Shown here piece after piece: positions 5,312 to 35,448 of a stretch of DNA of 38,803 nt (the stretch's first letter is position 1; every line of letters begins with the position of its first letter). Source of the stretch: Nevskia sp. GTDB taxonomy: Bacteria > Pseudomonadota > Gammaproteobacteria > Nevskiales > Nevskiaceae. The notes beneath the pieces are model-generated. The model was not told the origin of the DNA and searched no databases. It saw nothing but the letters and a program-made list of their open reading frames with translations. The stretch lies in contig JAQGNU010000065.1 of NCBI GenBank assembly GCA_028291645.1, positions 1 to 38,803 on the forward strand, written 5' to 3'. Position numbers and translations under genes: made by a program.

Positions 5312-5971
5312 TCAGTTGACGATCCAGATCGGCACCGGCTGCGCGGCAGTGCCGGTGACGAACAGGCTGTAGGCACGTCCGCGCTCCAGCGCGACCGGCT
5401 TGGCATCGGCGAGCTTGGTGTTGCCGTTGTAGATCGCCAGATCGATCTTGACTGCGTTGACCTCGCGATGGCCCGCGCTATTGGCGGCGACGTTGTCGAC
5501 CACCGCGGTGGCGCCGTCGGCGGTGCGCAGGCTCAGCGTGGTGCCGTCGACCAGGTTGAACACCGACACCAGCGCCTTCAGCTGGCTGTTGAAGCAGTCC
5601 TGGTCGAACACGTGGACGCCGTCTGCGGTGAGGGCGGCGGTGTAGCAGCGCGAGCCGGCGAGGTGCAGGTTCTGCTGGCTGCCGGCGAGCTTGGCCGGGT
5701 AATCGCCGGGCTGAACGAACTGATAGGCGCTGGCGTCGAACGCCGGCGTGTCGGGCAGCGCCTTATCGCCGACCTGCGCGCTGATCTTGGCCTGCGAAGT
5801 CGCGTTGAACACGCGCACGAACGCGGAGCCCGGCGGTGCCGCCGGAGGATACAGGCCGGCGCCGGCATCGGCGGCGACCGCGACCAGGCTCGCCAGCGCC
5901 AGCGCGCGCCAGCGGCGCAGTACGGATTTGCTCGAGCGGAACGAGGTCGGGATGGATCGGGATGAGTTCAT
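5312..5971 (-). CDS. algF: Alginate O-acetylation adaptor AlgF
   Basis: AlgF is a periplasmic adaptor needed for alginate acetylation together with AlgI, AlgJ and AlgX. The open frame extends further upstream, but the ATG at 5971 (MNSSRSIPTS) has a good CAGGAG site and gives a 219-residue protein with a basic n-region (RRWR) and a signal peptide to about residue 38. The mature start AGLYPPAAPPGSAFVRVFNA, followed by QFVQPGDYPAKL and a C-terminal ALERGRAYSLFV, matches the AlgF family pattern of a small beta-rich domain. It lies 52 bp after algJ and 8 bp before algX, within the operon. Confidence 0.9.
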   Translation of the reverse strand: MNSSRSIPTSFRSSKSVLRRWRALALASLVAVAADAGAGLYPPAAPPGSAFVRVFNATSQAKISAQVGDKALPDTPAFDASAYQFVQPGDYPAKLAGSQQNLHLAGSRCYTAALTADGVHVFDQDCFNSQLKALVSVFNLVDGTTLSLRTADGATAVVDNVAANSAGHREVNAVKIDLAIYNGNTKLADAKPVALERGRAYSLFVTGTAAQPVPIWIVN

Positions 5972-6023
5972 CGGTGGCTCCTGTTTGATCATTCGATCGT
6001 TGAAGTGGGGTGGGCGTGCAAGG

Positions 6024-7115: not shown

Positions 7116-7126
7116 GGCGTCGGATT

Positions 7127-8626: not shown

Positions 8627-10318
8627 TCAGCGTGCGCCGGTGAGAACTGCAGCCGCCGGCTTGACCATGACCGCCTGCTTCTGGCGCAGCAGGATGTCGA
8701 GCACCTTCTCCTGGTTTTCGCCGAGGATGCCGGAGAACTTGATGCCCATTTCGCGCCGCGGTGCGCGCAGGTCGATGTCGTACAGCTCGAGGCTCAGCGG
8801 CTGATCGATCGTGATCGGCGCCGAGCCGTTCGATACCAACTGGCCGCCGACCACCTGCATCGAGACTTTCAGATTGAACGGATCGAGCCGCAGGTTGCGG
8901 CCGGTATCGGCGAGATCCTTAATGTGGCCGTAGATGCCAGTGAGGTTGTTGCCGACCGCGGCATTGTCGTAGAGCCGCACCTCGGTCGAATTGCGCACGC
9001 GGATGCCATGGCGGCCGTTGCCGGTGGCAAGGTTCTGCCAGATCAGCGTGCGTGGGCTTTCATAGATGGTGATGCCATCGGAGGCGTTGCGGTAGACCTG
9101 GTTGCGCGCAACGATGTTGTTGACGCTATTGCGATCGACGACGATGCCGGACAGATGGTTGTCGTAGGACTTGTTGTCGAAGATCCAGCTGTCGTTGACT
9201 TCGCGCGAGACGATGATGCCGTGCTTGACCTTGGTACCGTAGGCGGTGTTCTCAGCGATGATCAGGCGCAGCGAACGGTCATGCGGATCGATGCCGTACT
9301 TGATGTTGTCGTGATAGACATTGCCGCGCACGACGACGTCCTCGGCTTCATAGCAGTAGAAGCCGTACCAGAGATCGGAAAAGTCCGAGTTCAGGATCCA
9401 GCCGCGCGGTGCCGGCCGATTCATCATCGGTGCCAGGCCCGGACTGAACTGGCTGATCGAGAGGCCGTAGGACTTGCTGGCGGCATAGCCGAGATGGGCG
9501 ATGCTCGAATCGGCGACGTAGGTTTCCGATCCGCCCCAGGACGTGATGAACGGCCGGAAGTCGTGCTCGTCCGCGAACCAGGCCGGCGTCTTGGCGCGTT
9601 CGTTCCAGGCGAGCACCTTGCTGCCGGTGATGAACAGCTTGCCTTCGTTGACCAGGAATGCACCGCGATCCAGCGACAGCCGCAATTCCTTCACCGAGGC
9701 ATCGATATGCAGCGTCGCGTTCGGGCGCACGTCGATCGGCAGGCGCGCGACGAACACGCCGGCGGAGACTTCCTCGAACTGCGATTTCGGCAACTGGCGC
9801 GCGAGGTCGCGCGGCGTGACGTAGCCGCCCTCAATGTAGATCGCCTTCGGCAGCGAGAACTGCCGCAGCGCCCACTCACGCAAGCGCTCGTCGCCGCCCA
9901 TGAAGGCTTTGAAGGCATTGTCCTGCAGCATCCGTGCGATCGCTGCGTGGCCCGCGGGCTTGCGCACGATCTTGGCATTCAGCGCCGCGCTGGTGTAGCC
10001 GGACAGGTCCGGCAGTTGTGGCGGCGCCAGCGTCAGGCTGTCCGACGGCACGGTATCGACGACGTAAGGCTTCGACTGGATTTCCTGGATCGCGCGTTCG
10101 TAGTCGTCGGGCGTGTCCTGATCGGAGCCGTCGCCCTGCTCGGCTTCGTCGGGATCGAGCGAATGGGCGTGGCGTCCGCCCGCAGCATGCGGCGCATCAT
10201 GCTGTGCGGCGGCGTGTGCCGCTGCGCTGCCGGCCGCCGCCGCATTGGCCGCACACAGCAGCGCGAGCATTGCCGCCAACGGCAGCAGGCGTTGCGCTGG
10301 GTACAGGCTCAGTACCAC
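8627..10318 (-). CDS. algG: Mannuronan C5-epimerase AlgG
   Basis: A periplasmic right-handed beta-helix enzyme converting D-mannuronate to L-guluronate in the polymer. I place the start at GTG 10318, which overlaps the algE stop by 10 bp, because the peptide then has a normal signal (basic QR, long hydrophobic core, AANAAAAG). The next ATG, at 10270, would leave no charged n-region. The protein is 563 residues. The catalytic DPHD motif is at 344-347 (YGIDPHDRS), and CASH-type repeats such as WIFDNKSYDNHLSGIVVDRN and SDGITIYESPR follow. Residues about 31-72 form a His/Ala/Asp-rich low-complexity linker before the conserved part, longer than I recall in Pseudomonas AlgG. Confidence 0.94.
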   Translation of the reverse strand: MVLSLYPAQRLLPLAAMLALLCAANAAAAGSAAAHAAAQHDAPHAAGGRHAHSLDPDEAEQGDGSDQDTPDDYERAIQEIQSKPYVVDTVPSDSLTLAPPQLPDLSGYTSAALNAKIVRKPAGHAAIARMLQDNAFKAFMGGDERLREWALRQFSLPKAIYIEGGYVTPRDLARQLPKSQFEEVSAGVFVARLPIDVRPNATLHIDASVKELRLSLDRGAFLVNEGKLFITGSKVLAWNERAKTPAWFADEHDFRPFITSWGGSETYVADSSIAHLGYAASKSYGLSISQFSPGLAPMMNRPAPRGWILNSDFSDLWYGFYCYEAEDVVVRGNVYHDNIKYGIDPHDRSLRLIIAENTAYGTKVKHGIIVSREVNDSWIFDNKSYDNHLSGIVVDRNSVNNIVARNQVYRNASDGITIYESPRTLIWQNLATGNGRHGIRVRNSTEVRLYDNAAVGNNLTGIYGHIKDLADTGRNLRLDPFNLKVSMQVVGGQLVSNGSAPITIDQPLSLELYDIDLRAPRREMGIKFSGILGENQEKVLDILLRQKQAVMVKPAAAVLTGAR

Positions 10319-11694
10319 AGCGTGAATTCCAGTGCGACGCGGTACTCGGCCTTCGCCGCCGCGCCGTAGGCGGCGCCCGGATCGAACACCGAGCCGCGCA
10401 GGCGCAGCCAGGTCTCGACGGTTTCGCCCTGCAGGTAGCGCGGTTGCTCGTGGCGCGCGCCGAAGTAGCGCGTCACCACCACGTCGTAGCCATTGCCGAG
10501 ATCGCTGCTGTTGGTGGTCGGCGCAACCGTCAGCGCGTCGGAGATGATCGGCTGGTTGTCGTTGACGCGCTCGAAGTGATTGAAGATCGCGCTGAAGTCG
10601 TAATCGCCCTTGGTCATCGAGGCGAAGCCGGTGTAGGCGCGCAGGTTGCCGATCTCGACGCGGTAGGCGTCGTTGAAGCGGTTGATCAGCGCACGCGTGC
10701 CGGTGAAGCGCGAGTAGTTGCTCTGTATGCCGCTCTGTTCGTACTGGCGCAGGCCGCCGCCGCTGCCGGCCGCGACCGCTGCGCCGATCTGCACCGGCCA
10801 GTCCGGCATCGACATGCGATAGCGCACGCCGAGTTCGCCCTGGTAAGCGTTGGCGTTTTTCGAGACCTCGCCGTCGACCACGCGCCCGCTGCCGAGTTGC
10901 AAAGTGCGCCGATGGCCTGTCAGGTAAGTCGCCGATTCCCAATAACTCAGCGCCGGCGCTTTTTCCGCATCGTAAGCATGGTTGTCAGCAAACAGGCCGA
11001 TCCAGGTCAGATGTTCCTTGTCCGCGCGATCGTTGCTGCCCAGCGTTTCGCCGGTGGCGGGCAACTGGTTGCTGTCGTCGGCATGCACCACGCGCGCACC
11101 GATGCGCTGCATCGGCAGTATTTCACCGCTGATGCTGCCGAAGAAATAAGTGCGGTCCTGCTGCTTGGACGGTTGTGGTGCGCCATCGCTGCGATAAGTG
11201 CTGAACTGATGCGCGACGGCCAGTTCGCTTTGCAGCAGCGTGGTGTCGAACATCCAGCGCACCGAGTCGAGATCTTCGTCCCACCATTCGGCGCTGTCCT
11301 CACGTGTGCGCTGGCGGCCGATGCGCAGCGATTCGCCGGGATAGCTGGTGATGCCGCCGTAGTCGATCCAGGCTTCCTTGAGGCCGACGTAGGCGCTGGA
11401 GCTGGCGCCGACGTTGTTGTTGGTGTTGCCCTGCGGCAGTACCGAGCCGCTGGGGATGAAGGCACGGCCGCGCACGTAGGCGCTCAGATCCGGCGAGAAC
11501 TGGAAGTGCACCCAGGGCGTCAGGTCGAGATAGGCCTGCTGCTGGTCGCTGCGTTGCTGCAGGCCGAGATCGCGGCCGGAGTCGGCTTCGCCGGTGACGG
11601 AGCCTTTGAAAGTGGCGTCGATGTCGACGGCGCCGGCCGAGGTTGCGGCGACGCCGAGAATGGAGCCGGCGGTCAGTGCGAGTTTGGCGTTTAT
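10309..11694 (-). CDS. algE: Outer-membrane alginate export porin AlgE, apparent ATA start
   Basis: The 18-strand beta-barrel through which alginate leaves the cell. Clear AlgE blocks are WIDYGGITSYPGESLRIGRQ, TREDSAEWW, LDSVRWMFDTTLLQSEL, RIGARVVHADDSNQLP, GYDVVVTRYF and the C-terminal LEFTLWY with terminal aromatic. The reading frame runs upstream without stop through a signal peptide (NAKLALTAGSILGVAATSAGA) and the first strand VDIDATFKGSVTGEADSGRD. No ATG, GTG or TTG occurs in this part. The only well placed initiator is ATA at 11694, seven bases after GGAG and overlapping the algK stop as ATAA. The first canonical codon, GTG 11511, would remove the signal peptide. Length is 461 residues from ATA. 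A one-base change or sequencing error in an ancestral ATGA overlap would explain it. Confidence 0.93.
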   Translation of the reverse strand: MNAKLALTAGSILGVAATSAGAVDIDATFKGSVTGEADSGRDLGLQQRSDQQQAYLDLTPWVHFQFSPDLSAYVRGRAFIPSGSVLPQGNTNNNVGASSSAYVGLKEAWIDYGGITSYPGESLRIGRQRTREDSAEWWDEDLDSVRWMFDTTLLQSELAVAHQFSTYRSDGAPQPSKQQDRTYFFGSISGEILPMQRIGARVVHADDSNQLPATGETLGSNDRADKEHLTWIGLFADNHAYDAEKAPALSYWESATYLTGHRRTLQLGSGRVVDGEVSKNANAYQGELGVRYRMSMPDWPVQIGAAVAAGSGGGLRQYEQSGIQSNYSRFTGTRALINRFNDAYRVEIGNLRAYTGFASMTKGDYDFSAIFNHFERVNDNQPIISDALTVAPTTNSSDLGNGYDVVVTRYFGARHEQPRYLQGETVETWLRLRGSVFDPGAAYGAAAKAEYRVALEFTLWY

Positions 11695-13385
11695 GAGCGT
11701 TCTCCGGTGCGAGTGATTGCAATCTGTTCGTCCCCGGTGGATGAATGGCGTGCCGCCAGTTCCCGCTGCATCAGCATGTCGACTGCGCGCAGATCATCTG
11801 GCGTCATCACGTCCTGCAACTGGCCCAGCAAGGTCTTCAGCGTCGGGCTGCCACTGGGCGCACCGAGCCTGGCGAACAGGTAGGCGTAGGCGTGGTTCGG
11901 GCAGACGCCCTTGCCGGCTGAGTAGAGCCGCGCCAGCGCCGAGTTGGCCGGCAGGAAACCGGCGCGTGCCGCCTTCAGCAGGTGCTGCCGCGCGGCATCG
12001 GCGTCTACTTCGTCCAGATAGCCGTACTGATAGAGCCGGCCGAGAAAGAAGTCGGCCTGGTTGGCGGTGACTGCGTGCGTCACTGCCTGCTGCAGCCACT
12101 TGAGCGCAGCTTGCGGATCGCGCGGCGTGCGCTGGCCGAGCAGATACAACTCGCCGAGATACAGCGGCGCTTCGTCGACACGGGCTTTTTGCGCCGACTG
12201 CAGAATCGGTGGTACGTCGACATCGGGCGCGAGGAACGGATAGCGCACGATCACGCCCGCGCCGAGCGCGCGTGCGCGCGCATCGCCGTCGAGCAGGCGC
12301 CGCAGCGCCTGGTTGGCCAGATCGGGATCCGCATTCGGCCCAGTGGGCGCCGGGGCCGGTGGTGGTGGCGGCGGCGGCGGCGGCGGGGTGCCCGGCACAG
12401 GGAGCGGTGGCGGCAGCGCGACGCCGACCGGCAGCTGCGCGCAGGCGGTGGCGAGCACCTGCGCCGGCGCATCACTCGCTGCGGACGGCGCGGTCTCGTC
12501 TTCGGGCACATCTGAAACCGGCGGCGCACTCAGATCGGCGTCTTCCGTATCGAGATTGTCGTCGACCAGCGCACGCGCCAGGCTGGCGATGGTGTCGACC
12601 GGCACGCGTTGCTGCCCGTACTGCGAGATCGCTGCAGCGGTCAGCGTTTGCATCTCGGTGTGATCGCCGCGGTTGCGCGCGTCGCGCAGCAGATCGACGT
12701 AGCACTCCGGTGCGGACGCCAGCGAACGCTTGCACAAGCGCAACAGCTTGCCGGCGTGATCCTCGAGCAGTGGCGTCGTACGGTACCAGCGGATCAGGGC
12801 CAGATTGGATTCGTAACGATCCAGCGCTTCGGCGCGTGCCGCCAGCGTCGGCAAGTCGTGGGCGCGATCGCGATCCGGATATTCCGCATAGATGCGGATC
12901 AGCAGCGCCAGTGCTTCGAGATCGTCACGCTGGCGGTACGCGCTCTGCGACAAGCGCTGTGCTTCGTCGATGCCGGCGGCGCTCGCCTGGCGCAGCAGCA
13001 GGCGCGCCAGCGCGACATCTTCCAGCGGCGACTGCGGCAGCGCGGCGCGATACCAGCGAATAGCCTTGGCGATACTCTCGGGACTGTCCTGCTGCGAATA
13101 GAGACGCGCCAATGCGAGCTGCGCTGCGGTCCAGCCGCGCCGGGCCAGCGGTTGTAGATCGCGCTCGGCATCGTCGACGCGGTTTTCGACCGCGGCCTGC
13201 TGGCCGCGCGCGAGGTCGGGCAGGCCGCGCGCTTTTTTCGCCGGCGCTGCTGGGGTGGGCGCCGTCGCTGCGTCCATTGACGCCGGCGCCGCTGTATCAG
13301 ACGCTGGCGGCGCTGCCGTCTGGCTGTAGGCGGCGCCGGCCAGCAACAGCGGCGGCAACAGCAGATGGCGGAATCGCAGGATCAT
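11691..13385 (-). CDS. algK: Alginate export scaffold AlgK (TPR/Sel1-like), non-lipidated variant
   Basis: A 564-residue periplasmic superhelical scaffold that links the synthase complex to AlgE. The signal peptide (about 1-22, RFRHLLLPPLLLAGAAYSQ) has alanine where a lipobox cysteine would be; the first Cys is residue 218. Pseudomonas AlgK is a lipoprotein, so membrane attachment must differ here. A Pro/Ala-rich spacer (23-52) is followed by Sel1/TPR-type helical repeats such as GWTAAQLALARLYSQQD, LEALALLIRIYAE, LGELYLLGQRTPRDPQAALKWLQ and SALARLYSAGKG. Residues about 285-350 are an acidic then Pro-rich insertion with ten consecutive prolines (334-343). It overlaps alg44 by ATGA and algE by ATAA. 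Identity rests on position and repeats. Confidence 0.88.
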   Translation of the reverse strand: MILRFRHLLLPPLLLAGAAYSQTAAPPASDTAAPASMDAATAPTPAAPAKKARGLPDLARGQQAAVENRVDDAERDLQPLARRGWTAAQLALARLYSQQDSPESIAKAIRWYRAALPQSPLEDVALARLLLRQASAAGIDEAQRLSQSAYRQRDDLEALALLIRIYAEYPDRDRAHDLPTLAARAEALDRYESNLALIRWYRTTPLLEDHAGKLLRLCKRSLASAPECYVDLLRDARNRGDHTEMQTLTAAAISQYGQQRVPVDTIASLARALVDDNLDTEDADLSAPPVSDVPEDETAPSAASDAPAQVLATACAQLPVGVALPPPLPVPGTPPPPPPPPPPAPAPTGPNADPDLANQALRRLLDGDARARALGAGVIVRYPFLAPDVDVPPILQSAQKARVDEAPLYLGELYLLGQRTPRDPQAALKWLQQAVTHAVTANQADFFLGRLYQYGYLDEVDADAARQHLLKAARAGFLPANSALARLYSAGKGVCPNHAYAYLFARLGAPSGSPTLKTLLGQLQDVMTPDDLRAVDMLMQRELAARHSSTGDEQIAITRTGERS

Positions 13386-14602
13386 GCCGGCAGGTAGGCG
13401 CGCAGACGGTTCCAGTCGAAGCGCGGCAGATCGGCACCGCCGATGCGAACGTCGACCGGACGATCGACCAGATTCGCCGGCAAGGCTTCGTCCGGCTCGA
13501 TCTCGACGATGACGTCGCTGATCACCGCGCTGCCGTTGAGGCCACGCAGGTCGCTGCTGCCGCCACCTTCGGCCGGATTGGCCGGGCTCGGCAGCAGCCG
13601 CAACTGGCGGATGGTGCCCTGGCGGTCGCCGCTTTCGCCGCCGACGTGGAAGCCGATGCTGCGGCCCGGCGACAGTTTCGGAATGCTATCGAAATGAAAG
13701 CGCGCCAGCACGTAGGGCTTGGCCTCTTGCGGCACCAGTTCCAACAGCGGCTGGTTGCGGTTGATGTACTGCGCATCCATCGCGTACTGCGTCTGCACGC
13801 GGCAATCGCAGGGGCTGGAAATCGTTCCCTTGAGGGTTTCGCCCATCAGATCGGAAAGCTGCTGCGGCGTCAGATGCAGCGAGCCGGGATCGTTCTGCAT
13901 GACGTCGAGCATCGCCGCCTGGAACGTGCCGATCGGCTGACCTTTCTTGACTAGGCCGTCCGGCGGTATCAGGTTGAAGAAGGTGCCGTCGCGCGGCATC
14001 GCGATGGTGAAGCTCGAGGCTGCGATCTTGGCGGCGTTGGCGTGCATCACGAACAGCGCCGAGTACAACGTCGACGCCGCATAGGTGAAGGCGGCGAGGC
14101 CGACGACAAACATGACGCCGGTCAAGCTCAAGGCGCGCAGCCGACCGGCCGGCGACAGTGGGGGTGCCGGTTCGACTTGCGCGCGCGGCTTGCTGTAGTT
14201 GTCGCGCGACAGCGTCGCCAGCATCTCGCCGGCAGTCGTGACTTCGCCGGAAAGGTATCCGCCGATCAGGTAGTGCAGGGTCGCAACGGTGCCGGCCGTG
14301 AGATTTTCGAAGCTGCAGCCGGTGCGTCGGCTGCTGTTGTCGAAATTGCGCACGCAGAACTGCACCGGCAGGTTCAGCGCCAGTGAATCGACGCCCAACT
14401 GCAGCACGCCGCGATCGAGCGCGCCGACCTGGTAGCTGTGCGGTGCCTCGAAGGCGAAGCCGGCGACGGAAATGTCGATCACCCGGCAGGCGGCTTCGGT
14501 GTTGCCATGGGCGATACGCACGGTGGCTGGAATGCGTACGCGCGGATGCTGCCGCTGCGTTTCGGTTTCGTGCACCACCTGCGGTTTCAGGCCGTTGTCC
14601 AT
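13382..14602 (-). CDS. alg44: c-di-GMP receptor and co-polymerase Alg44 (PilZ-HlyD)
   Basis: A 406-residue inner-membrane protein that binds cyclic di-GMP and switches on Alg8. The N-terminal PilZ domain has both binding motifs: RQHPR (Arg17 and Arg21) and DISVAG (Asp43, Ser45, Gly48), at almost the same positions as in Pseudomonas Alg44. A single transmembrane helix lies at about 157-183 (LSLTGVMFVVGLAAFTYAAS). The periplasmic part is HlyD/membrane-fusion-like (PRDGTFFNLIPPDGLVKKGQ, ISSPCDCRVQ, GRSIGFHVGG). It starts 42 bp after alg8 and overlaps algK by ATGA. Intact PilZ residues mean polymerisation is probably under c-di-GMP control. Confidence 0.96.
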   Translation of the reverse strand: MDNGLKPQVVHETETQRQHPRVRIPATVRIAHGNTEAACRVIDISVAGFAFEAPHSYQVGALDRGVLQLGVDSLALNLPVQFCVRNFDNSSRRTGCSFENLTAGTVATLHYLIGGYLSGEVTTAGEMLATLSRDNYSKPRAQVEPAPPLSPAGRLRALSLTGVMFVVGLAAFTYAASTLYSALFVMHANAAKIAASSFTIAMPRDGTFFNLIPPDGLVKKGQPIGTFQAAMLDVMQNDPGSLHLTPQQLSDLMGETLKGTISSPCDCRVQTQYAMDAQYINRNQPLLELVPQEAKPYVLARFHFDSIPKLSPGRSIGFHVGGESGDRQGTIRQLRLLPSPANPAEGGGSSDLRGLNGSAVISDVIVEIEPDEALPANLVDRPVDVRIGGADLPRFDWNRLRAYLPA

Positions 14603-14644: not shown

Positions 14645-16165
14645 TCAGTGCGAACTGGCGATGTACATCACCATCGCAGCGAACACGCTGACCGAGGAAA
14701 AGATCATCGCGGTCGAAGACCAGCGGTTGAACCTGCGCTGAAAGTGGTCGTTGCCGCTCGCGAGTTTGGTCTTCTGGCGCGTCCACGACTGCTGGTCGAG
14801 ACGGAAGAACACCGCGATCTTGACCAGCGAGCCGACCACCTGGTTGTAGTAGAGAAACAGCGGATAGCTCGGTCCGATGCGGTGACCCGACAACAACAGC
14901 AGCAAGCTCATGCCGAGCCGGGTGATGCCGACCCACAGTAAAAAGCCGATCAGGTAAGCGGCGCTGTATTGCAGGCTCGCGGCGATCGCCAGCGCCAGGC
15001 CGAGCAGGCCGGTCCACATCAGCACGCGCTGATCGAGCAGCACGTAGTAGGTGAACCAACCGAGCACCGCGGGGCCGAGCTTGAGTGCGCGGCCGTTCTG
15101 GCGCAGCGAGTTGCCGTACCAGCGAAACATCAACTGGCGGCTGGCGGCGACGAAGCGCGGATCGGGCGGATGTTCGATCGTGCTGATCGCGGCATCCGGC
15201 ACGTAGTAAGTATCCCAGCCCATCCGCATCAGGCTGTACCAGCTCGACTTGTCGTCGCCGGTGAGGAACTTGAAGCGGCCCAGGCGCCAATGATCGAGCG
15301 CGTCGTGCTCGACATCGTGGATGAAGCCGGGGTCGGTGATGATCTCGGCACGGAACAGCGACATGCGGCCGGTCAGCGTCAGCACGCGCTTGGTCAGCGC
15401 CATCGAGCACATGTTCATGTGGCGCTGGGCGAAGCGCAGCCGGTGCCATTCGCGCATCGCGTAGCTGCCCTGGACTTCGCAGAACTCGTTGGTGGTGAGT
15501 CCGCCGACGGTCGGCATCAGCTTGAGGAACGGCGCGGTGCTGGCGACCACGCCGGGCTGCAGCACGGTATCGCCGTCGATCACCGCGACCACCGCATCGC
15601 GGTCGGGCATGTCGCGCGAGATCGCGCGGAAGCCTTGCGCCAGACCATCGCGCTTGCCGGTGCCGGGAATGCGCACGATCTTCAGGCGTACGCGCGGCGG
15701 CGGTGCCAGCCGCCGCCACAGTTCGAGAATCAGTCGCTGATCGGACATCTCCACGATCGACGCCACCACCGTCGCCGGCCAGCCGCAGCGACAGGCTTCC
15801 TGGATCACCGAGCGGTACACCTGCGCGGTGGTTTCGGCGTCGATGCGGAAACTCGTCACCATCAAATAGATGTGCGAAGGCGCCAGCGCAGCGCCCGCCG
15901 CCTCGACCTGCTTGCGCATGCGCGGAAACGAGCGGTGCAGGAACAGCAGGCTGCGCACGATGTGGATGCTACGCAGACCGTAGCGCCAGAAGCCGAGCAG
16001 TCCGATGGCGAAGACGTAGAGCCGGTTGCCCGGCTCGAACGCTTCGCTCGGCAGCAGCATGACCAGGACCAGCAAGCCGCTGAGGTACAACAGCCAGCCG
16101 CCGGACTGGGCGAGGCGTCCGCGCAGCCCTAACGGTGGCGCCACGCTGCTTGCGAGTGTGTTCAC
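14645..16165 (-). CDS. alg8: Mannuronan synthase Alg8 (GT2)
   Basis: The inner-membrane processive family-2 glycosyltransferase that polymerises GDP-mannuronate and passes the chain through the membrane. The open frame extends into algD, but GTG 16165 is the likely start: it follows algD by 13 bp, has GGCAGG at good spacing and gives 506 residues, close to the 494 of Pseudomonas Alg8. Two transmembrane helices come first (about 23-39 and 49-62). The GT domain then has the VIDGDT DxD motif (197-199), LTGDDKSSW (301-309) and RQLMFRW (343-349, the QxxRW-like box). About four C-terminal membrane helices follow. Confidence 0.95.
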
Positions 16166-16178
16166 GGGCAGCCTGCCG

Positions 16179-17489
16179 CTACCAGCAGATACCCTGCATT
16201 TCCGCAGTCGATGTTTCCGGCATGAAGCCGACCAGATCGACCACCTTGCGGCCAGCACGGCTGCCGTTCACTGCCTTTTCGAAATTCTGGTCGCGCAGAC
16301 CCAGCACCAGCACGTCGGAGCAGTCGATGACTTCCTGGAAGTCGGACTTCAGGAGGCTGGAGATGTGTGGAATCTTGTCGTTGATGTATTCGCGGTTGGC
16401 ACCATGCACCCGCGCGTATTCGACATTTCGGTCGAAGATCGACAGGTCGTAGCCCTTGCCGATCAGCATCTCGGCGAGTTCCACCAGCGGGCTCTCGCGC
16501 AGGTCGTCGGTTTTCGCCTTGAACGATAGTCCGAACAGGCCGATGCGGCGTTCGCCGAAGGACTCGACCAATTCGAACGCTTTGCGCACCTGTGCGGCAT
16601 TGCTTTGCATCAGCGAACCGAGCAGCGGAATCGCGGCGTCGAGCTGGGTTGCGCGATAGGTCAGCGCGCGCACGTCCTTCGGCAGACAGGAGCCGCCGAA
16701 CGCGAAGCCGGGACGCATGTAGTAGTTCGACAGGTTGAGCTTTTTATCCTGGCAGACGACGTCCATCACCTGGCGGCCGTCGACGCCGAGCGCCTTGGCG
16801 ATGTTGCCGATCTCGTTGGCGAACGCGACCTTGGTCGCATGCCAGACGTTGCACGAATACTTGACCATCTCGGCGACTTCGATTGGCTTGCGGATGATCG
16901 GCGCCGGCAGTTCTTCGTAGAGCGCGGCGAGCAGGTCGCCGGAGGCGGCATCCCATTCGCCGATCACCGTCATCGGCGGATGGTTGTAGTCGGCGATCGC
17001 GGTGCTTTCGCGCAGGAATTCCGGATTGACGGCGACGCCGATGTCGGCGCCGGCACTCTTGCCCGAGACCGATTCGAGAATCGGCACGACGGTGTTCTTG
17101 ACGGTGCCCGGCAGCACCGTCGAACGCACCACCACGGTATGGCGGTTGGCCTTGTGCTTGATCGCCAGCGCGATATCACGCGTCACCGCTTCGATATAGG
17201 CGAGATCGAGATCGCCGGAGCGCTTGCTCGGCGTGCCGACGCAGATCATCGACAGCTGCGAATGGCGCACCGCATCGTCGGTGCTGGTGGTGGCGCGGAT
17301 GTGACCGCTGGCGACGCCGCGCGCGAGCAGGGCTTCGAGTCCCGGTTCGACGATCGGCGATTTGCCCCGGTTGATCAGATCGACCTTGACGTCGGAGATG
17401 TCGACGCCGATGACGTGGTGGCCGCGGTCGGCCAGGCAGGCGGCGCAGACCGCGCCGACGTATCCCATTCCAAAAATGCTGACTTGCAT
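16179..17489 (-). CDS. algD: GDP-mannose 6-dehydrogenase AlgD
   Basis: Oxidises GDP-mannose to GDP-mannuronate in two NAD-dependent steps, the committing reaction of alginate synthesis. The ATG at 17489 ([20 protein letters not shown]) gives exactly 436 residues, the length of the Pseudomonas enzyme; the 20 codons before it in frame are not conserved. It shows the Rossmann GMGYVG motif (7-12), the VGTPS block, [10 protein letters not shown] (155-164) and the catalytic Cys268 in [12 protein letters not shown], again at the Pseudomonas position. AAGGA lies upstream. In Pseudomonas algD heads the operon and carries the main promoter; here it is third, 75 bp after manB, and I see no strong promoter in that gap. 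Confidence 0.97.
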
Positions 17490-17564
17490 GATTTCAACCG
17501 TCCTTGGTTTAAAAGCTGAATGCCGTTGGGTAATGCTTCGAGCTTGCACGTGCTGCGGGTGTTT

Positions 17565-18977
17565 CTAGGCGGCTGTGCCTCCTACCAGCGTCAGCAGCTC
17601 TTGTGTCTTGCGGCGCATCAGCAATTCGTCGCCGCGGGATTCCAGGTTCAGGCGCAGCAGCGGCTCGGTGTTGCTGGTACGCAGGTTGAAGCGCCAGTCG
17701 GGCATTTCGACCGACAGTCCGTCGACTTTCTCGACGATGGCACCGGCCCTCGCGTAGTGCGCTTCGGCGCGGTCGAGTACCGCTTGGCTGTCGGCGACGC
17801 GGCGATTGATTTCGCCGCTCGCCGGAAAGCGGCGCTGACGTTCGCTGACCAGCTGCGACAGCGAAAGTCCCGATGCACTGATTAGCGCCGCTACCAGCAG
17901 CCACGGGATGTTGCCGTTGTCGCAATAGGCGAAGTCGCGGAAATAATGATGGGCGCTCATCTCGCCGCCATAGACGGCGTTTTCGGCGCGCATGCGTTCC
18001 TTGATGAAGGCATGGCCGGTCTTCGATTGCACCGGGATGCCGCCGGCGGCATTGACCATGTCGATGGTGTTCCAGGTCAGCCGCGGATCGTGAATGATTT
18101 TCGAGCCCGGCTCCTTCTTCAGCATCGCCTCGGCGAGCAGGCCGACGATGTAGTAGCCCTCGATGAATTCACCGTACTCGTCGAACAGGAAGCAGCGATC
18201 GAAATCGCCGTCCCAGGCCACGCCGAAATCGGCGCGTTCCGCGCGCACCGCCGCGGCGGTCGCCGCGCGGTTGTCCGGCAGCAAAGGATTCGGAATGCCG
18301 TTGGGGAAGCTGCCGTCCGGTGTGTGATGGAGCTTGACGAAGCGCAGCGGCAGCCAGGATTCCAATGCATCGATGACCAGGCCGGCCGAGCCATTGCCAG
18401 CGTTGACCACGATCTTCAGCGGCGCGAGCTTGCTGGTATCAACGTAACTGAGCAGATGCTGCACGTAGGTCGCACGCAGGCTGACCGGCGTCATGCGCGG
18501 CATGCCACCGGGCAGCACGATGGAATTCGCCACCAGCGTTTCGAGCTCACGCAGTCCGGAATCGCCGGACACCGGCACCGCGCCCGCGCGCACCAGCTTC
18601 ATGCCGTTGTAGTCGATCGGATTATGGCTGGCGGTGACCATGATGCCGCCATCGACACCGGGTTGTGCTGCGGCGAAGTAGACCTCTTCGGTACCGCAGA
18701 GGCCGAGATCGAGCACATCGGCGCCGCCGTGGTTCAGCCCCAGCGCCAGCATCCGCGACAACGGCACGCTGGAATGGCGCACGTCGCGGCCGATGGCAAC
18801 CACCGACGGTTCGAAACGCTGCGCGTAGGCGGCGCCGAGACGATACGCAATTTCCGGACTCAACTCGTCCGGAACGCGGCCGCGCAGGTCATAGGATTTG
18901 AAGCAGGGCAATCGCTTCGCGGCAGTTGCCGCGAAGACGCTGCCATCGCTCGTAGCCGGCATTGATTCGTCGCTCAT
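17565..18977 (-). CDS. manB: Phosphomannomutase (ManB/CpsG type)
   Basis: A 470-residue alpha-D-phosphohexomutase that converts mannose 6-phosphate to mannose 1-phosphate for GDP-mannose synthesis. Active-site Ser117 lies in VTASHNP (114-120). The metal loop is DGDFDR (256-261), the sugar-binding loop GEMSAHHYFRDF, and the C-terminal phosphate-binding loop RTSNTEP. The sequence (CFKSYDLRGRVPDELSPEIAY, IDYNGMKLVR, GKTGHAFIKERMR-like segment) resembles enterobacterial CpsG/ManB more than Pseudomonas AlgC, which is encoded away from its alginate operon. It overlaps algA by ATGA. It probably performs the AlgC role here. The last 20 residues are Ala/Gly-poor and normal for the family. Confidence 0.92.
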   Translation of the reverse strand: MSDESMPATSDGSVFAATAAKRLPCFKSYDLRGRVPDELSPEIAYRLGAAYAQRFEPSVVAIGRDVRHSSVPLSRMLALGLNHGGADVLDLGLCGTEEVYFAAAQPGVDGGIMVTASHNPIDYNGMKLVRAGAVPVSGDSGLRELETLVANSIVLPGGMPRMTPVSLRATYVQHLLSYVDTSKLAPLKIVVNAGNGSAGLVIDALESWLPLRFVKLHHTPDGSFPNGIPNPLLPDNRAATAAAVRAERADFGVAWDGDFDRCFLFDEYGEFIEGYYIVGLLAEAMLKKEPGSKIIHDPRLTWNTIDMVNAAGGIPVQSKTGHAFIKERMRAENAVYGGEMSAHHYFRDFAYCDNGNIPWLLVAALISASGLSLSQLVSERQRRFPASGEINRRVADSQAVLDRAEAHYARAGAIVEKVDGLSVEMPDWRFNLRTSNTEPLLRLNLESRGDELLMRRKTQELLTLVGGTAA

Positions 18978-20464
18978 GCGCCACCCGCATCGGTCTTGGC
19001 GGGTTCGGTGCGGCCGTAGACGTCGCTCATGCGCACGATGTCGTCCTCGCCCAGATAGGCGCCGGACTGCACCTCGATCAGTTCGAGCGGCACGCGTCCC
19101 GGATTTTCCAGGCGGTGCAGTTTCGACAGCGGTATGTAGGTCGACTGGTCTTCGGTGATCAGGAACGTCTTCTCATCGCAGGTGACCCGCGCAGTGCCCT
19201 TGACCACGACCCAATGTTCGGCGCGGTGATAGTGCATCTGCAGGCTCAGCTTGTGGCCCGGTTTCACCAGAATGCGTTTGACCTGGAAGCGTTCGCCGGC
19301 AGCGATCGATTCGTAGAATCCCCAGGGCCGGTAGACGCGGCGATGGGCATCGGCTTCGCTGCGGCGCGCGCGCCTCAGCTTTTGCACGATGCCCTTGACG
19401 TCCTGCGCACGTGATTTCGGTGCAACCAGCACGGCGTCGGCGGTTTCCACCACGACATGATCGGTGACGCCGACCATCGCGATCAGACGTCCGCTCGAAT
19501 AGGCGAGATTGCCGTCGGCGTCGTCGAACACGACGTCGCCTTCGAACCGGTTGCCGCGGTCGTCGTCGGCAGGCAGTCGTTCGAGAAAGGTCCATGAACC
19601 GACGTCGTCCCAGCCGGCATCGAGCGGCACCAGCGCCATGTGATCGGTCTTCTCCATCACCGCGTAGTCGATCGACACGTTGCGGCAACTGCGAAACGAC
19701 TTCGCATCGAGTTCGATGAACCGGCTGTCGCGACGCGCTTTCTGCACCGCGTCCTGCGCGCGTGAATAGGTCTCCGGCTCCAGGCGACGCAGCTCTGCCA
19801 GAAAGCGGCTGGCGCGAAACAGGAACATGCCGCCATTCCAGAAGTGATCGCCGGCATCGAGATAGGCCTGCGCGCGCTCGGCCGACGGCTTCTCGACGAA
19901 CGATTCGACCGCGTAGGCGCCGATGGTGCCGAGGCGCGAGCCGACCTTGATGTAGCCGTAGCCGGTTTCAGGACGCGTCGGACGCACTCCGAACGTCACG
20001 ATAAAACCCTGTGCCGCCGCTGCGATCGCGGAATTGACCGCGCGCATGAAGGCGGCGTGATCTTCGATCGCGTGATCTGCCGGCATCAGGAACAGGATCG
20101 CTTCCGGCCCGTATTCCTCGGCGACATGGTGTGCCACGGCTGCCGCAGCGGGCGCGGTGTTGCGTGCTTCCGGTTCGAGCAGCACCGTCGCGCCGCGCAG
20201 GCCGGCCTGTTCCAACTGCTCGGCAATGACGAAGCGATGCATTTGCGAGCCGACCACGATCGGCGTTGCCGCTTCATCGATCTGTGCACTGCGCTGTGCG
20301 GTGTCCTGGAACAAGCTGCCCTGATGCAGCAGCGACAGAAATTGTTTTGGATATTGTTCGCGCGACAGCGGCCACAAGCGGGTGCCTGAGCCACCGGCGA
20401 GCAACACCGGCACGATCAATTGCGGATGCGTCATCGTCGTCGGCAAGCTGTGTCCTGCGTCCAT
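18974..20464 (-). CDS. algA: Bifunctional mannose-6-phosphate isomerase / GDP-mannose pyrophosphorylase
   Basis: A 496-residue type II PMI-GMP that makes mannose 6-phosphate from fructose 6-phosphate and GDP-mannose from mannose 1-phosphate. The N-terminal nucleotidyltransferase domain has VLLAGGSGTRLWPLSREQYP (20-39) and FVEKP. The C-terminal cupin isomerase (about 376-485) has YRPWGFYESI, GHKLSLQMHYHRAEHW with metal-binding His411, His413 and His417, and IPLSKLHRLENPG. The ATG at 20464 has a strong AAAGGAG site. It is the first gene of the operon, whereas in Pseudomonas algA is the last. Upstream are the sigma-54 promoter and GlrR-type palindromes. A general housekeeping role for GDP-mannose is also possible. 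Confidence 0.95.
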   Translation of the reverse strand: MDAGHSLPTTMTHPQLIVPVLLAGGSGTRLWPLSREQYPKQFLSLLHQGSLFQDTAQRSAQIDEAATPIVVGSQMHRFVIAEQLEQAGLRGATVLLEPEARNTAPAAAAVAHHVAEEYGPEAILFLMPADHAIEDHAAFMRAVNSAIAAAAQGFIVTFGVRPTRPETGYGYIKVGSRLGTIGAYAVESFVEKPSAERAQAYLDAGDHFWNGGMFLFRASRFLAELRRLEPETYSRAQDAVQKARRDSRFIELDAKSFRSCRNVSIDYAVMEKTDHMALVPLDAGWDDVGSWTFLERLPADDDRGNRFEGDVVFDDADGNLAYSSGRLIAMVGVTDHVVVETADAVLVAPKSRAQDVKGIVQKLRRARRSEADAHRRVYRPWGFYESIAAGERFQVKRILVKPGHKLSLQMHYHRAEHWVVVKGTARVTCDEKTFLITEDQSTYIPLSKLHRLENPGRVPLELIEVQSGAYLGEDDIVRMSDVYGRTEPAKTDAGGA

Positions 20465-20571
20465 GCGTTACATCTCCTTTGACGAATTCCGTCGCGCGAT
20501 GTCCGCGTGGCGGAATGAGCATGCGTCGCGTTTTTCGCGAAGCGGGTTGAGGCGATTCCACATAGGCTTAG

Positions 20572-20587
20572 AGCACCGCCCGTGCCA
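20572..20587 (-). promoter_or_regulatory. Sigma-54 (RpoN) promoter of the alginate operon
   Basis: Read on the minus strand the element is TGGCACGGGCGGTGCT. Against the sigma-54 consensus TGGCACGrNNNTTGCW only one defined base differs (GTGC for TTGC). The invariant GG (-24) and GC (-12) are 10 bases apart, as required. The start of transcription would be near 20561, leaving a leader of about 97 bases to the algA ATG at 20464. The leader includes a small hairpin (TCGCG/CGCGA, 20526-20540). No AlgU-type GAACTT box was seen. A sigma-54 promoter needs an AAA+ activator, and one (GlrR) is encoded next door. Confidence 0.8.
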
Positions 20588-20652
20588 AGCTGAAAAAGTG
20601 CTTTAAAGTCATTTCTTTGAGTTGCACAAATGGCTTGAAACAGCGGGAAAAT

Positions 20653-20673
20653 GCCGATTTCCGCGAAAACGGC
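20653..20673. promoter_or_regulatory. 21-bp imperfect palindrome between promoter and activator sites
   Basis: GCCGATTTC, CGC, GAAAACGGC: the arms match at eight of nine positions. It lies about 66 bp upstream of the -24 element of the algA promoter and 10 bp below the proximal GlrR-type palindrome. Its sequence is unrelated to the TGTYGC-type sites, so it could bind a different regulator or a bending protein. Function is inferred from position only. Confidence 0.35.
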
Positions 20674-20682
20674 GCGGAGAAC

Positions 20683-20700
20683 TGTTGCCAAATGGCAACA
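20683..20700. promoter_or_regulatory. Proximal GlrR-type activator site (palindrome)
   Basis: TGTTGCCAAATGGCAACA is a perfect inverted repeat with 8-bp arms and a 2-bp centre. It has the geometry TGTT-N10-AACA, one transition away in each arm from the enterobacterial GlrR consensus TGTC-N10-GACA. Its centre is about 130 bp upstream of the predicted algA transcription start, a normal place for an enhancer bound by a sigma-54 activator. Confidence 0.65.
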
Positions 20701-20749
20701 CTGCAATTCGCGATCTTGCAGAAACGCTGTTGCCGCGTGGAAATTCATC

Positions 20750-20767
20750 TGTCGCAATGCGGCGACA
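20750..20767. promoter_or_regulatory. Distal GlrR activator site TGTC-N10-GACA
   Basis: TGTCGCAATGCGGCGACA fits TGTC-N10-GACA exactly; the palindrome extends one base each side (CTGTCGC 20749-20755, GCGACAG 20762-20768). It shares the TGTYGC-N6-GCRACA pattern and 18-bp length with the site at 20683-20700, and the centres are 67 bp apart. A weaker half-site TGTTGC begins at 20728. The centre is about 197 bp from the predicted algA start and 117 bp from the glrK start codon, so autoregulation of glrK is also possible. Confidence 0.7.
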
Positions 20768-20875
20768 GGCGCCAGGCGCGGAACAAAGCCCCGGTTGCGC
20801 TGGTCGAAAAATCTGGTGCCGCGGCGCGTAGTGATCGACCGTCATGCAGATGCGCAGGCTTATCGATACGAATAA

Positions 20876-22366
20876 ATGATTTTGAAACTGCCGAAAACGG
20901 TGACCGGTTTGGCGATCACCGGCTTCCTGTTGGCGGCGATGCCGCTGCTGCTTGCGCTGTTGGTTGCGGAGTTGGCGCTGCAGCAATTGTCTGCGCAGAC
21001 CGAAGCCTTGTTGAACGACAGCATCGCGATGGCGCGGCTCGGCGATCAATTGTTCAATCAAGTCGACGATGTCGAACGCAGTGCGCGCCAATATGCGGTG
21101 CTCGGCGACGACGACCTTGCCGAAATCGTCGAGAAGCGCTGGCAGGCGACCGAGGTCACGCTGGAAAAGTTGGCGATGCAGGTGAAAGATCCTTCTTCTG
21201 TCGCTGCGATCGACGCGCTGCAACGTGATGAGCACGCTGCGCGTCTGGACTGGTCGCAGGCCCCACGGGATGCGCACGCGCTGGCTGCAGCGATCGAAAA
21301 AGTACGCAGTCTGCGGCTGCAGGCGGATGCTCTGATCTCGATCGGTCGGGACAAACTCGACGCGCGGATCAAGCAACTGGTGGACGCCACTCGCTCCGCG
21401 CGTCACCAGATGTTGATCTCGACGGTGACGCTGGTTCCGCTCGGCGTTCTGCTGGCCCTGGGATTTTCGGTAGCGGTGACGCGGCCGATCAAACACATGT
21501 TCCATGCCATCGCCGCATTGGGCCGCGGCCGCTACGGGCGTGTGGTTTCGATCCCGTATCCGCGCGAGATGCACCGCCTCGGCGAGCAGATCGACTGGCT
21601 GCGTCGACGCCTGGCAGGTTTCGATCAGGATAAGGATCGCTTCCTACGACAGGTATCGCACGAATTGAAGACGCCTCTGGTCAGTCTGCGCGAAGGCACC
21701 GACCTTCTGCGCGACGGTTCGCTCGGTGCGATGTCGCGGCAGCAGCTCGAAGTTGCTGAAATCCTCTCCGAGTCGACCAGCGAGCTTGAGAATCTGATCA
21801 ACAATCTGCTGAGTTACGCCGAGTGGCGCGCCGAGCGCTTGCAATCGCAGAAGGCCTGGTTCGAAGCGCGCGCGCTGATCGAGGAGGTCGCGGCGCTTAA
21901 TCGGCTGCCGATGGCGAAACGCGGATTGACGATGGAACTTGAGCTGGATGCGCAGCGTCTATTTGGATTGCGTTCGCAACTGCGCGTCGCGTTCGACAAT
22001 CTGATGACCAATGCGATCAAGCATTCGCCGCAGGGTGCTGTCATCGAAATTGGCACGCGGGTTGCCGGTGATTGTTTCGAAATGTGGGTGCGCGATTATG
22101 GACGTGGCGTGTCGGAAGCAGAGAGAGACGCGATTTTCGAACCTTTCGTGCGCGGCACGGAAGTCGAGGAGGAAGGGATTCGTGGCACCGGCGTGGGTTT
22201 GTCGATCGTCAAAGAGACTGTGCTGGCCCACGGCGGCAACGTGGCTGTCGTCGATGCGGAGCCTGGCGCGCGTTTTACGCTGGCCTGGCCTTTTCCTGCT
22301 GTTCAGTCTGACGACCAATGGCTGCGCATGGATTCCGCTGCAGCAGAATGCAACCCCGCCACTTGA
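20876..22366 (+). CDS. glrK: Sensor histidine kinase GlrK/QseE family
   Basis: A 496-residue inner-membrane kinase. Transmembrane helices lie at about 13-36 and 180-203 around a 145-residue helical periplasmic domain. A HAMP linker follows (about 203-252), then the dimerisation/phosphoacceptor domain with His262 in FLRQVSHELKTPLVSLREGT, and a HATPase with the N box NLMTNAIKHS, G1 DYGRGV and G2 GTGVGLSIV. The REGTDLL extension after the H box is typical of GlrK/QseE rather than KinB. The ATG at 20876 lacks an obvious ribosome-binding site; no other good start is near. It should phosphorylate GlrR, encoded two genes downstream. Its last 113 bp overlap the lipoprotein gene. Confidence 0.88.
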   Translation: MILKLPKTVTGLAITGFLLAAMPLLLALLVAELALQQLSAQTEALLNDSIAMARLGDQLFNQVDDVERSARQYAVLGDDDLAEIVEKRWQATEVTLEKLAMQVKDPSSVAAIDALQRDEHAARLDWSQAPRDAHALAAAIEKVRSLRLQADALISIGRDKLDARIKQLVDATRSARHQMLISTVTLVPLGVLLALGFSVAVTRPIKHMFHAIAALGRGRYGRVVSIPYPREMHRLGEQIDWLRRRLAGFDQDKDRFLRQVSHELKTPLVSLREGTDLLRDGSLGAMSRQQLEVAEILSESTSELENLINNLLSYAEWRAERLQSQKAWFEARALIEEVAALNRLPMAKRGLTMELELDAQRLFGLRSQLRVAFDNLMTNAIKHSPQGAVIEIGTRVAGDCFEMWVRDYGRGVSEAERDAIFEPFVRGTEVEEEGIRGTGVGLSIVKETVLAHGGNVAVVDAEPGARFTLAWPFPAVQSDDQWLRMDSAAAECNPAT

Positions 22367-22700
22367 ATATCTTTCCACCGCGCTGGATGCTGCACCAGAC
22401 CAGCGCGAAAAAATGTGGCGCCATGCGCGCAAAGGCGACGGCAGCCGTGAGAGCGAATTGCGCATCGCAGTGATGCAAAGTCTGCCCGGCCACACGGGTT
22501 ACGATGCGCCGGCGGCGCGCCGTCACCTGCAGGCCTTGCGAGCTGCAAGCCCGCCCGACGAGATTGCGGCAGTCGCGCAGCTGCGTCTGGCCGAGATGCA
22601 CACAGACGATGCACTGCGCGATGAAAATCAGTCGTTGCGGCAGCGCTTGTCGCAGCTTGTCGATATCGAACGCAGCATGGTGGCGCGCGACCGTCCTTAG
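22254..22700 (+). CDS. QseG-like lipoprotein linked to GlrK/GlrR
   Basis: A 148-residue protein in a frame different from glrK, overlapping its 3' end by 113 bp. The leader (MRSLARVLRWPGLFLLFSL) ends in TTNGC, giving a lipid-modified Cys24. The mature part is helical and ends in an amphipathic coiled-coil stretch, DENQSLRQRLSQLVDIERS (123-141). Between glrK and glrR, enterobacteria encode QseG, an outer-membrane lipoprotein that signals to the kinase; position, lipobox and the C-terminal helix fit that role. It is shorter than E. coli QseG. ATG 22254 gives the full leader. It ends 8 bp before glrR, so all three genes form one unit. Confidence 0.72.
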   Translation: MRSLARVLRWPGLFLLFSLTTNGCAWIPLQQNATPPLEYLSTALDAAPDQREKMWRHARKGDGSRESELRIAVMQSLPGHTGYDAPAARRHLQALRAASPPDEIAAVAQLRLAEMHTDDALRDENQSLRQRLSQLVDIERSMVARDRP

Positions 22701-22708
22701 GAATCGCT

Positions 22709-24082
22709 ATGAATCTTCCGACGAAGCATCGACAAGTTCTGCTGATCGACGATGACGCCAAGCAGCTGCGCGTGATAACGCTGCGGCTCGAGACCGAAGG
22801 CTACAGCGTCGCCTCTGCTGCGAGCGGCGCCGATGCGCTCGCGCAATTGCGCGACGTGCGCCCGCATCTGGTGCTGACCGATCTGCGGATGCCCGGCATC
22901 GATGGCGTCGAACTGCTCGCACAGGTTCAGAACCGCATGCCCGGCGTGCCGGTGGTGCTGCTTTCCGCACATGGTGACATCGACGACGCCGTACGTGCGC
23001 TGCACGGCGGCGCGGTCGATTTCCTGACCAAGCCGGTGGATCGCGAACGCCTGCTGGAATGTCTGCAGCGCTATATCCCGACGCAGGATCCGGCACCGGC
23101 GGTCGGCAGTCAGTGGGCCGCCGATCTGGTGACGCGTAGCCCGACGATGGCGGCCATCCTCGAAGACGCGCGTCGCGTCGCGCGCACCGATGCGACGGTG
23201 CTGGTGACCGGCGCCAGCGGCAGCGGCAAGGAATTGATGGCGCGCGCGATCCATCGCGGCAGCGCACGCAGCACGCGTCCATTCGTGGCGATCAATTGCA
23301 GCGCGGTGCCGGCCGAGTTGCTGGAATCCGAGTTGTTCGGTCACCGCCGCGGTGCATTCACCGGTGCCACCGCCAATCATTCCGGCCTGTTCCGTGCCGC
23401 TGAAGGCGGCAGCATTTTTCTTGACGAGATCGGCGACATGCCGGCCGAACTGCAGGTCAAGCTGCTGCGTGTTCTGCAGGAGCGCGAAGTGCGTCCGGTC
23501 GGCGAGACGCAGACGGTCGCCGTCAACGTGCGTGTCATTTCCGCCACGCATTGCGATCTGGAGGCGCGCGTGCAGAGCGGCACCTTCCGTGAAGATCTGT
23601 TCTACCGCTTGAATGTGGTGCGCCTGCGCCTGCCAGCCCTGGCTGAAAGGCGCGAGGATATTCCGCTGCTGGTGACGCATTGCCTGAGCCAACTCGCCGC
23701 CGCCGGCGGACCACGGCATGCGTATTCGCCGGAAGCGCTCAACCTGCTGGTCGGCGCACCCTGGCCGGGCAATGTGCGCCAGTTGATGAATGTGGTCGAG
23801 CAGACCGTTGCGCTGGCGCCGGGGCGGGTGATCAGCGCGGCACTCGTGCGCAAATGCCTCGGCGAGGCCAGCGGCGAATTGCCTTCGTTCGACGAGGCGC
23901 GCAGTGCCTTCACGCAGAACTATCTGCAACAGCTGCTCGAAGTGGCGGGCGGCAATATCAGCTACGCCGCGCGCCTGGCAGGACGTAACCGCAGCGACTT
24001 CTACAAACTGCTGAATCGCTATGGCATCACGCCCGGCGAATTCAAACGCAGTTTTGAAATCGCCCAGGAAGCACAGGGCTGA
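22709..24082 (+). CDS. glrR: Sigma-54-dependent response regulator GlrR/QseF family
   Basis: A 457-residue NtrC-type activator. The receiver domain has acidic residues at 14-16, phosphoacceptor Asp58 (VLTDLRMPG) and Lys108 (FLTKP). The AAA+ domain has Walker A GASGSGKE, the sigma-54-contacting GAFTGA loop (215-220), Walker B IFLDEIGD and an arginine-finger region REDLFYRLN. The C-terminal Fis-like HTH includes [20 protein letters not shown]; the AGRNRxxFYKLL block is characteristic of GlrR and differs from AlgB. With intact GAFTGA it should open sigma-54 promoters such as the one before algA. It is the last gene of the glrK-lipoprotein-glrR unit. Confidence 0.92.
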
Positions 24083-35430: not shown

Positions 35431-35448
35431 GGTTCCCATCGTGGAACC
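35431..35448. promoter_or_regulatory. Inverted repeat in the edd/zwf divergent control region
   Basis: GGTTCC (35431-35436), a 6-base spacer and GGAACC (35443-35448) form a perfect 18-bp palindrome 71 bp before the zwf ATG and 143 bp from the edd ATG. Entner-Doudoroff genes are often controlled by a repressor at this kind of site (HexR in pseudomonads), but the sequence does not match the HexR palindrome I know. Operator function is inferred from position and symmetry. Confidence 0.35.

Follow-up and report, generated by a model that had tools for sequence, protein, structure and literature searches.

The stretch of DNA analysed here, called the window throughout, comprises 38,803 nt of a draft assembly of Nevskia sp. 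(3.83 Mb in 234 contigs, 91% complete) and carries on its minus strand, between 20464 and 2733, a set of 13 alginate genes in the order algA-C-D-8-44-K-E-G-I-J-F-X-L. Domain and profile matches identify AlgD, Alg8, Alg44 (PilZ), AlgK, AlgE, AlgG, AlgX, AlgL, AlgI/J/F and AlgA among the products, and the polymer predicted to be made by the operon is alginate. Divergently from algA run the genes of a sensor kinase (GlrK), a small QseG-like lipoprotein candidate and an NtrC-family activator (GlrR), and the 411-bp gap between algA and glrK is the site of a sigma-54 (-24/-12) box facing the alginate operon and of two palindromes of the GlrR type (Table 1). Judged from these features and their conservation, it is very probable that a GlrR-activated, sigma-54-dependent promoter drives the full alginate operon.

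The box, TGGCACGGGCGGTGCT, departs from the consensus TGGCACGNNNNTTGCW at a single position, and both the GG of the -24 and the GC of the -12 element are intact. It lies on the minus strand where the original prediction, made from the sequence of the window, had placed it, and a transcript beginning near 20561 is predicted, which would give algA a leader of about 97 nt. The two palindromes which the same prediction had located upstream of the box are both perfect and at the positions given, and the outer one is, as claimed, an exact TGTCN10GACA.

The regulator encoded next to the operon shares 54.5% identity over 442 aa with GlrR of E. coli K-12, matches the receiver and AAA+ models of Pfam, and carries Walker A at residue 168 and GAFTGA at residue 215. 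A tree of 39 proteins places it with E. coli GlrR in a clade of 37 rows (100/98), outside which stand two long-branched NtrC-family rows of P. gingeri, one of them AlgB (so named because its gene directly precedes the KinB-sensor gene). The C-terminal helix-turn-helix (HTH) was recognised by alignment, the Pfam listing being without an HTH match; its recognition helix is near-identical to that of E. coli, AARMAGRNRTEFYKLL, and unlike the HTH of AlgB, from which one would expect the same palindrome to be read. Of the NCBIfam models that of GlrR scores best, with 565 bits against a cut-off of 763. Two other identities of the regulator were rejected: AlgB, as the protein lies outside AlgB in the tree and differs in its HTH, and PrsR, whose model TIGR02915 scores 336 bits against a cut-off of 503 and against the 565 of the GlrR model. 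The kinase aligns with E. coli GlrK at 30% identity over 430 aa (E 3e-50) and is encoded in one glr cluster with glrR; no GlrK model is among the best 25 NCBIfam models listed for it in the window, all of these being below cut-off. The divergent GlrK/QseG/GlrR system of the original prediction thus stands for GlrR with its GAFTGA loop and, by identity, for GlrK, while the middle gene is only QseG-like. Its better start is the ATG at 22254, and in a profile comparison its likeness to QseG was confined to the C-terminal DIER stretch (probability 49%). A similar middle protein occurs in five of six linked relatives (not found in G021), and these QseG-like proteins are alike among themselves in 16/16 loci tried, which were chosen for earlier QseG-like matches (L138, L147-L149 and other loci lacking such a match were left out). 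A Cys follows the hydrophobic stretch in 10 of the 11 rows given in full, the window lipobox, TNGC, being atypical. RpoN is over cut-off in 17/17 genomes tested, and in the genome of the window it is found as two pieces on two contigs.

The promoter architecture was followed through related genomes with Alg8 and GlrR as guides. Alg8 found a match in 17 of 58 genomes of the family, 16 of which were taken as alginate operons, with algD adjoining alg8 wherever the DNA was fetched; left out were an Alg8-like match in G061 (39%), whose surroundings were not looked at, and one of 38% in G035 (L172), near which no other alg gene was found. Three further genomes of the order (G038, G045, G048) bring the alginate genomes to 19, and these three, together with 18/58 of the family, also have glrR orthologues (E up to 1e-105). 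Eleven genomes own both alg and glrR, and all 11 assessable alginate operons among them show a -24/-12 box toward alg and two GlrR-type sites upstream. The geometry is fixed: the sites start 102-104 bp (113 in the window) and 168-173 bp (180 in the window, 185 in G035) above the box, so that each window site is about 10 bp, or one helical turn, farther out, a spacing shared with further arrays in the order (110-116 and 176-183 bp). At seven of the 11 (G000, G027, G073, G069, G035, G021, G032) glrKR is divergent from alg. At the other four (G080, G038, G045, G048) glrR lies on another contig and the DNA retrieved above alg, 3 to 8 kb, is free of glr genes, yet the array is present, which argues that it belongs to alg; it is conserved with alg rather than with glrK. 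Among the alginate genomes in which no glrR orthologue was found (n=8, six assessable) the array was seen in 0/6, and Fisher's test of 11/11 against 0/6 gives 8e-5. The window Alg8 is nearer to that of glr-bearing other genera (75% at best) than to that of its genus-mates (59-62%), and the window GlrR groups with those same genera and with G066, which has no alg (85/84, the branch not being starred); it seems that alg and glr were either retained or transferred together. Whether the palindromes are conserved in relatives of the same layout had been named as a test of the original prediction, and it came out in favour: sites and box are kept, also at alginate operons not beside glrKR, and the proposed wiring of alginate to GlrK/QseG/GlrR and sigma-54 is supported.

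Taken one by one, the box and the palindromes are only mildly unusual, and the rarity lies in their combination. With K allowed before TGC and at most one mismatch, the box is matched three times in the window where 1.48 matches are expected, a number reached in 19/100 shuffles, and the palindrome (at most one mismatch) three times against 1.03, reached in 6/100. Exact palindromes occur at nine places in the whole assembly, as compared with two for the reversed pattern, and of the seven further ones a single one (L001) has a sigma-54-like box within 30-500 bp, namely at L001:1501-1604, where a box with two mismatches stands at 88 bp. Two sites and a box at set distances are met once in the 3.83-Mb assembly, at the algA promoter. 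When 49 loci (893 kb) were scanned for such arrays at a total of at most seven mismatches, 28 were found against none in reversed sequence (32 against one at up to nine), and the strict array pattern gave 16 places in 15 of 369 genomes of the class, against four places for the reversed pattern. In 11 x 300 bp of upstream DNA from the alginate operons of glrR genomes TGTN12ACA occurs 18 times and TGTCN10GACA 13 times, where first-order Markov resampling expects 0.36 and 0.035; the glr-less set has one TGTN12ACA against 0.43. A single site with TGGCAY, searched order-wide, hardly discriminates (47 places in 37/85 genomes against 31 reversed), and it misses the window promoter because site 1 starts with TGTTG. 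Chance sequence could be invoked to explain the array, given that the lone elements are only two to three fold above shuffles in the window, but the 28 arrays against none, the conservation with fixed spacing and the 18 sites against 0.36 leave it next to no probability.

The palindromes might instead autoregulate the divergent glrK-qseG-glrR genes, their nearness to alg being incidental: they lie between glrK and algA, with site 2 ending 109 bp from the glrK start, and an array of G081 (L182, plus strand) points toward glrK. Yet no sigma-54 box toward glrK is found in the window intergenic region at up to three mismatches, the array is kept at the four alginate operons not beside glr, and qseEGF of E. 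coli is reported, in an excerpt of PMC6075780, not to be autoregulated; this explanation is very improbable. Equally bound to the same sites is the idea that another NtrC-family activator of the genome, in which the GlrR query has at least 27 matches, mostly paralogues, uses the palindromes. From genome to genome, however, the array accompanies the glrR orthologue, glrR adjoins alg in 7/11, and the sites fit the QseF/GlrR consensus as given in the excerpted report, which makes such an activator highly improbable. A different kind of explanation, compatible with a GlrR-dependent promoter, would have AlgU with AlgB/AlgR-type help drive alginate and the GlrR array play a minor or conditional role. 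The AlgU/RpoE module, judged by its marker MucB/RseB, which is present in 16 of 17 genomes, that of the window included, has probably been kept and could act on alginate; moreover, genus-mates without glrR have array-less alginate operons, and therefore other inputs exist. Against this, the KinB sensor domain (PF16767), which the P. gingeri genome has, was found in 0/4 of the glr-alg genomes searched, the regulator does not resemble AlgB, and no AlgU-like match in the intergenic region is better than two mismatches of 11, a scan that decides nothing, as at up to three mismatches it is satisfied by 455/500 shuffles. A dominant AlgU is on balance unlikely; the further suggestion that the GlrR circuit replaces AlgU and KinB/AlgB goes beyond what the sequence shows, for the KinB sensor was not found in the four genomes but MucB/RseB is found in nearly all. 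Five of the glr-less genus-mates (L163, L164, L168, L171, L175) show another conserved box before algD, TGGCGCGAAAYRTGC, seen by eye in 5/6 glr-less operons (not in L166), with sigma-54-like GG/GC spacing and conserved blocks further up, and their alginate is therefore wired differently.

The GlrR-activated promoter would work as follows. GlrK, gated by its small QseG-like partner, would phosphorylate GlrR upon an envelope signal, whereupon GlrR dimers could bind both palindromes, the DNA could bend across the A+T-richer spacer, and the GAFTGA loop of GlrR would allow RNA polymerase with sigma-54 to melt the -24/-12 promoter and the alginate genes to be expressed. Several points weigh against this scheme. 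In the spacer, matches to integration host factor (IHF) sites are weak, none being better than two mismatches from the consensus, and the best blastp match of the middle protein to E. coli QseG is borderline (E 0.9 over 20 aa). Some sites are poor, with up to 3/12 positions off in G021 and G038, while among the glr-less operons L164 (G005) pairs a single weak site with a weak box at 117 bp and L166 (G007) has one TGTN12ACA. Two of the 19 alginate genomes (G013, G063) had to be excluded from the counts because the DNA upstream of alg is off the contig. In the Alg8 tree seven glr-less operons of the window's genus stand opposite the glr-associated ones and G063 (split 100/100), and the comparison of 11/11 with 0/6 therefore represents few independent events. 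Finally, the distance windows of the 49-locus scan were chosen after the geometry of the alg and glmY sites had been seen, and the 49 loci were picked for carrying glrR or alg8.

Most of what is known of alginate regulation comes from Pseudomonas and Azotobacter, and two-component, sigma-54-dependent control of exported material, to which the circuit proposed here bears a likeness, is known from PrsK/PrsR, which acts on PEP-CTERM/exosortase genes. The closest known counterpart is QseE-QseG-QseF of E. coli. According to excerpts of PMC6075780, GlrR/QseF directly activates the sigma-54 promoters of glmY and rpoE, both of which have upstream sites, that of glmY with the help of IHF; QseG gates the kinase, the consensus of the sites is TGTN12ACA, and GlmS is reached through GlmY. 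The E. coli system and that of the window have in common an orthologous regulator with a near-identical HTH, the K-G-R gene order, the type of site and the sigma-54 box, and also the two-site geometry: measured in the same way, the glmY sites lie 107, 170 and 203 bp above the box, the first two of which compare with 102-113 and 168-185 bp at the alginate operons. They differ in that the target is a small RNA in E. coli and a 13-gene alginate operon here, that the E. coli glr operon lies downstream of glmY whereas here it is divergent from the target, that glmY has a third site, and that QseG is barely similar to the middle gene. No Rfam match to a GlmY-like RNA was obtained in the window at gathering scores, nor any match in the 3.2-kb locus of the algA promoter (L220) at E up to 0.5, although an undescribed RNA would escape both searches; over 15 array loci Rfam gave one unrelated weak match only. 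The second direct QseF target of the excerpted report, rpoE P2, has similar upstream sites (PMC6075780) but is a sigma-factor gene and serves no polymer synthesis. In P. aeruginosa, alginate has been linked to AlgU, to AlgB and, in strain PAO579, to RpoN, whose reported involvement at PalgD was placed upstream of AlgU (excerpts of PMC3684759 and PMC3162934). In the AlgB/KinB control of algD in Pseudomonas, too, an NtrC-family regulator (AlgB, PMC3162934, in excerpt) acts on alginate, but the window regulator is outside AlgB, the KinB sensor was not found and the operon starts with algA-algC-algD. Among the matches listed in the literature searched, the scope of which left out most subscription papers, none connects GlrR/QseF with the transcription of alginate or exopolysaccharide genes in what its title, abstract or excerpts show; two of those listed name both GlrR and alginate. 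The circuit is well supported by sequence and probably new, as a known regulatory module placed on a new target, and control of alginate by GlrR and sigma-54 would be surprising to specialists.

Only 11 of the 28 arrays belong to alg; the other 17 come from loci centred on glrR and lie no more than about 6 kb from it. Downstream of arrays next to glrR there are, judged by eye, genes for EF-hand-like exported small proteins (L162:9038-9334, L222:1731-2012, L216, L225), that of L162 only 43 nt from the array. A BON protein is encoded downstream of the L154 array and glycine-zipper-like proteins (by eye) at L151 and L153, and envelope proteins with BON domains or glycine zippers stand 3' of GlrR-type sites and sigma-54 boxes at L145, L148, L154, L072 and L083, on the basis of Pfam for L145 and L154 and by eye for L148, L072 and L083. 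Among 80 named-genome loci (of at least 591 candidates) five arrays were found at up to six mismatches against none reversed, none of them at a recognisable alginate gene; BON-like genes (by eye) follow three of the five (L070, L072, L083). A second polysaccharide cluster with a GlrR array is divergent from glrKQR at L141:7541-17191 (G006) and L182:517-6996 (G081), with a TackOD1-GGDEF protein, a PgaC-like GT2 and HlyD, and at L141 also an epimerase and a GlmS over its NCBIfam cut-off. GlmS in a GlrR-linked cluster is of note because GlrR of E. coli acts on GlmS via GlmY (PMC6075780, in excerpt). For several of the 17 arrays, e.g., L157, L158 and L174, no target was recognised among the downstream genes looked at. 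A second array of G081 (L182:7469, plus) faces glrK with about 650 bp from box to gene, which leaves room for a small RNA as in glmY-glrK of E. coli.

These loci make us lean slightly towards the view that, outside enterobacteria, GlrK/QseG/GlrR is a general sigma-54 switch for exported or outer-envelope material and that the GlmY-GlmS branch of E. coli is derived. In the taxonomic order of the window the targets of such a switch would be alginate, the second synthase-type polysaccharide cluster, or small BON, glycine-zipper or EF-hand-like envelope proteins, all from promoters of glmY geometry, and the E. coli branch would reach a polymer-precursor gene through a small RNA. The glmY-like build of the alginate promoter, in the window and in relatives that likewise own the GlrK/GlrR pair, suggests that this pair may switch on a capsule-like polymer here rather than a regulatory RNA. 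If so, a little-understood three-component system would gain a clear structural output, its signal would become testable through a visible phenotype, mucoidy, and a hint would be given at the evolutionary relation of a precursor-supply circuit and an exopolysaccharide switch.

Table 1. Promoter elements and genes of the alginate and glr loci in the window
Feature	Position	Strand	Basis or remark
Sigma-54 (-24/-12) box of alginate operon, TGGCACGGGCGGTGCT	20572..20587	-	pattern match
Spacer, 95 bp	20588..20682		A+T 55% (36% in window)
GlrR-type site 1, perfect palindrome TGTTGC-N6-GCAACA	20683..20700		begins 113 bp upstream of box
GlrR-type site 2, perfect palindrome TGTCGC-N6-GCGACA, exact TGTCN10GACA	20750..20767		begins 180 bp upstream of box
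glrK-like sensor kinase, 496 aa	20876..22366	+	HisKA, HATPase_c; H-box SHELKTPL at residue 261
QseG-like small lipoprotein candidate, 148 aa	22254..22700	+	C-terminal DIER motif, atypical lipobox
glrR, NtrC-family activator	22709..24082	+	receiver, AAA+ (GAFTGA), C-terminal HTH
algA, mannose-1-phosphate guanylyltransferase/isomerase, first operon gene	18974..20464	-	TIGR01479, over cut-off
algC-like phosphomannomutase	17565..18977	-	profile/domain matches
algD-like nucleotide-sugar (GDP-mannose) dehydrogenase	16179..17549	-	profile/domain matches
alg8-like GT2 polymerase	14645..16258	-	domain match; query of Alg8 searches
alg44-like PilZ protein	13382..14602	-	PF07238
algK-like Sel1-repeat lipoprotein	11691..13385	-	NF038194 (below its cut-off) and domain match
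algE-like alginate export protein	10309..11511	-	PF13372
algG mannuronan epimerase	8627..10942	-	NF038177, over cut-off; N-terminal part of reading frame may be over-long
algI-like MBOAT acyltransferase	7127..8614	-	domain match
algJ-like SGNH acetyltransferase	6024..7130	-	PF16822
algF	5312..6064	-	PF11182
algX, SGNH and carbohydrate-binding module	3843..5303	-	domain match
algL alginate lyase	2733..3833	-	NF001467, over cut-off

Beyond these loci, a carbohydrate phosphorylase gene lies immediately 3' of glrR on the same strand (24482-27010, plus). An IS200-like transposase match exactly at the Pfam cut-off (31658-32185, plus) gives a hint of mobility near the cluster, and zwf, for glucose-6-phosphate dehydrogenase, is recognised over its NCBIfam cut-off at 35441-36982 (plus).

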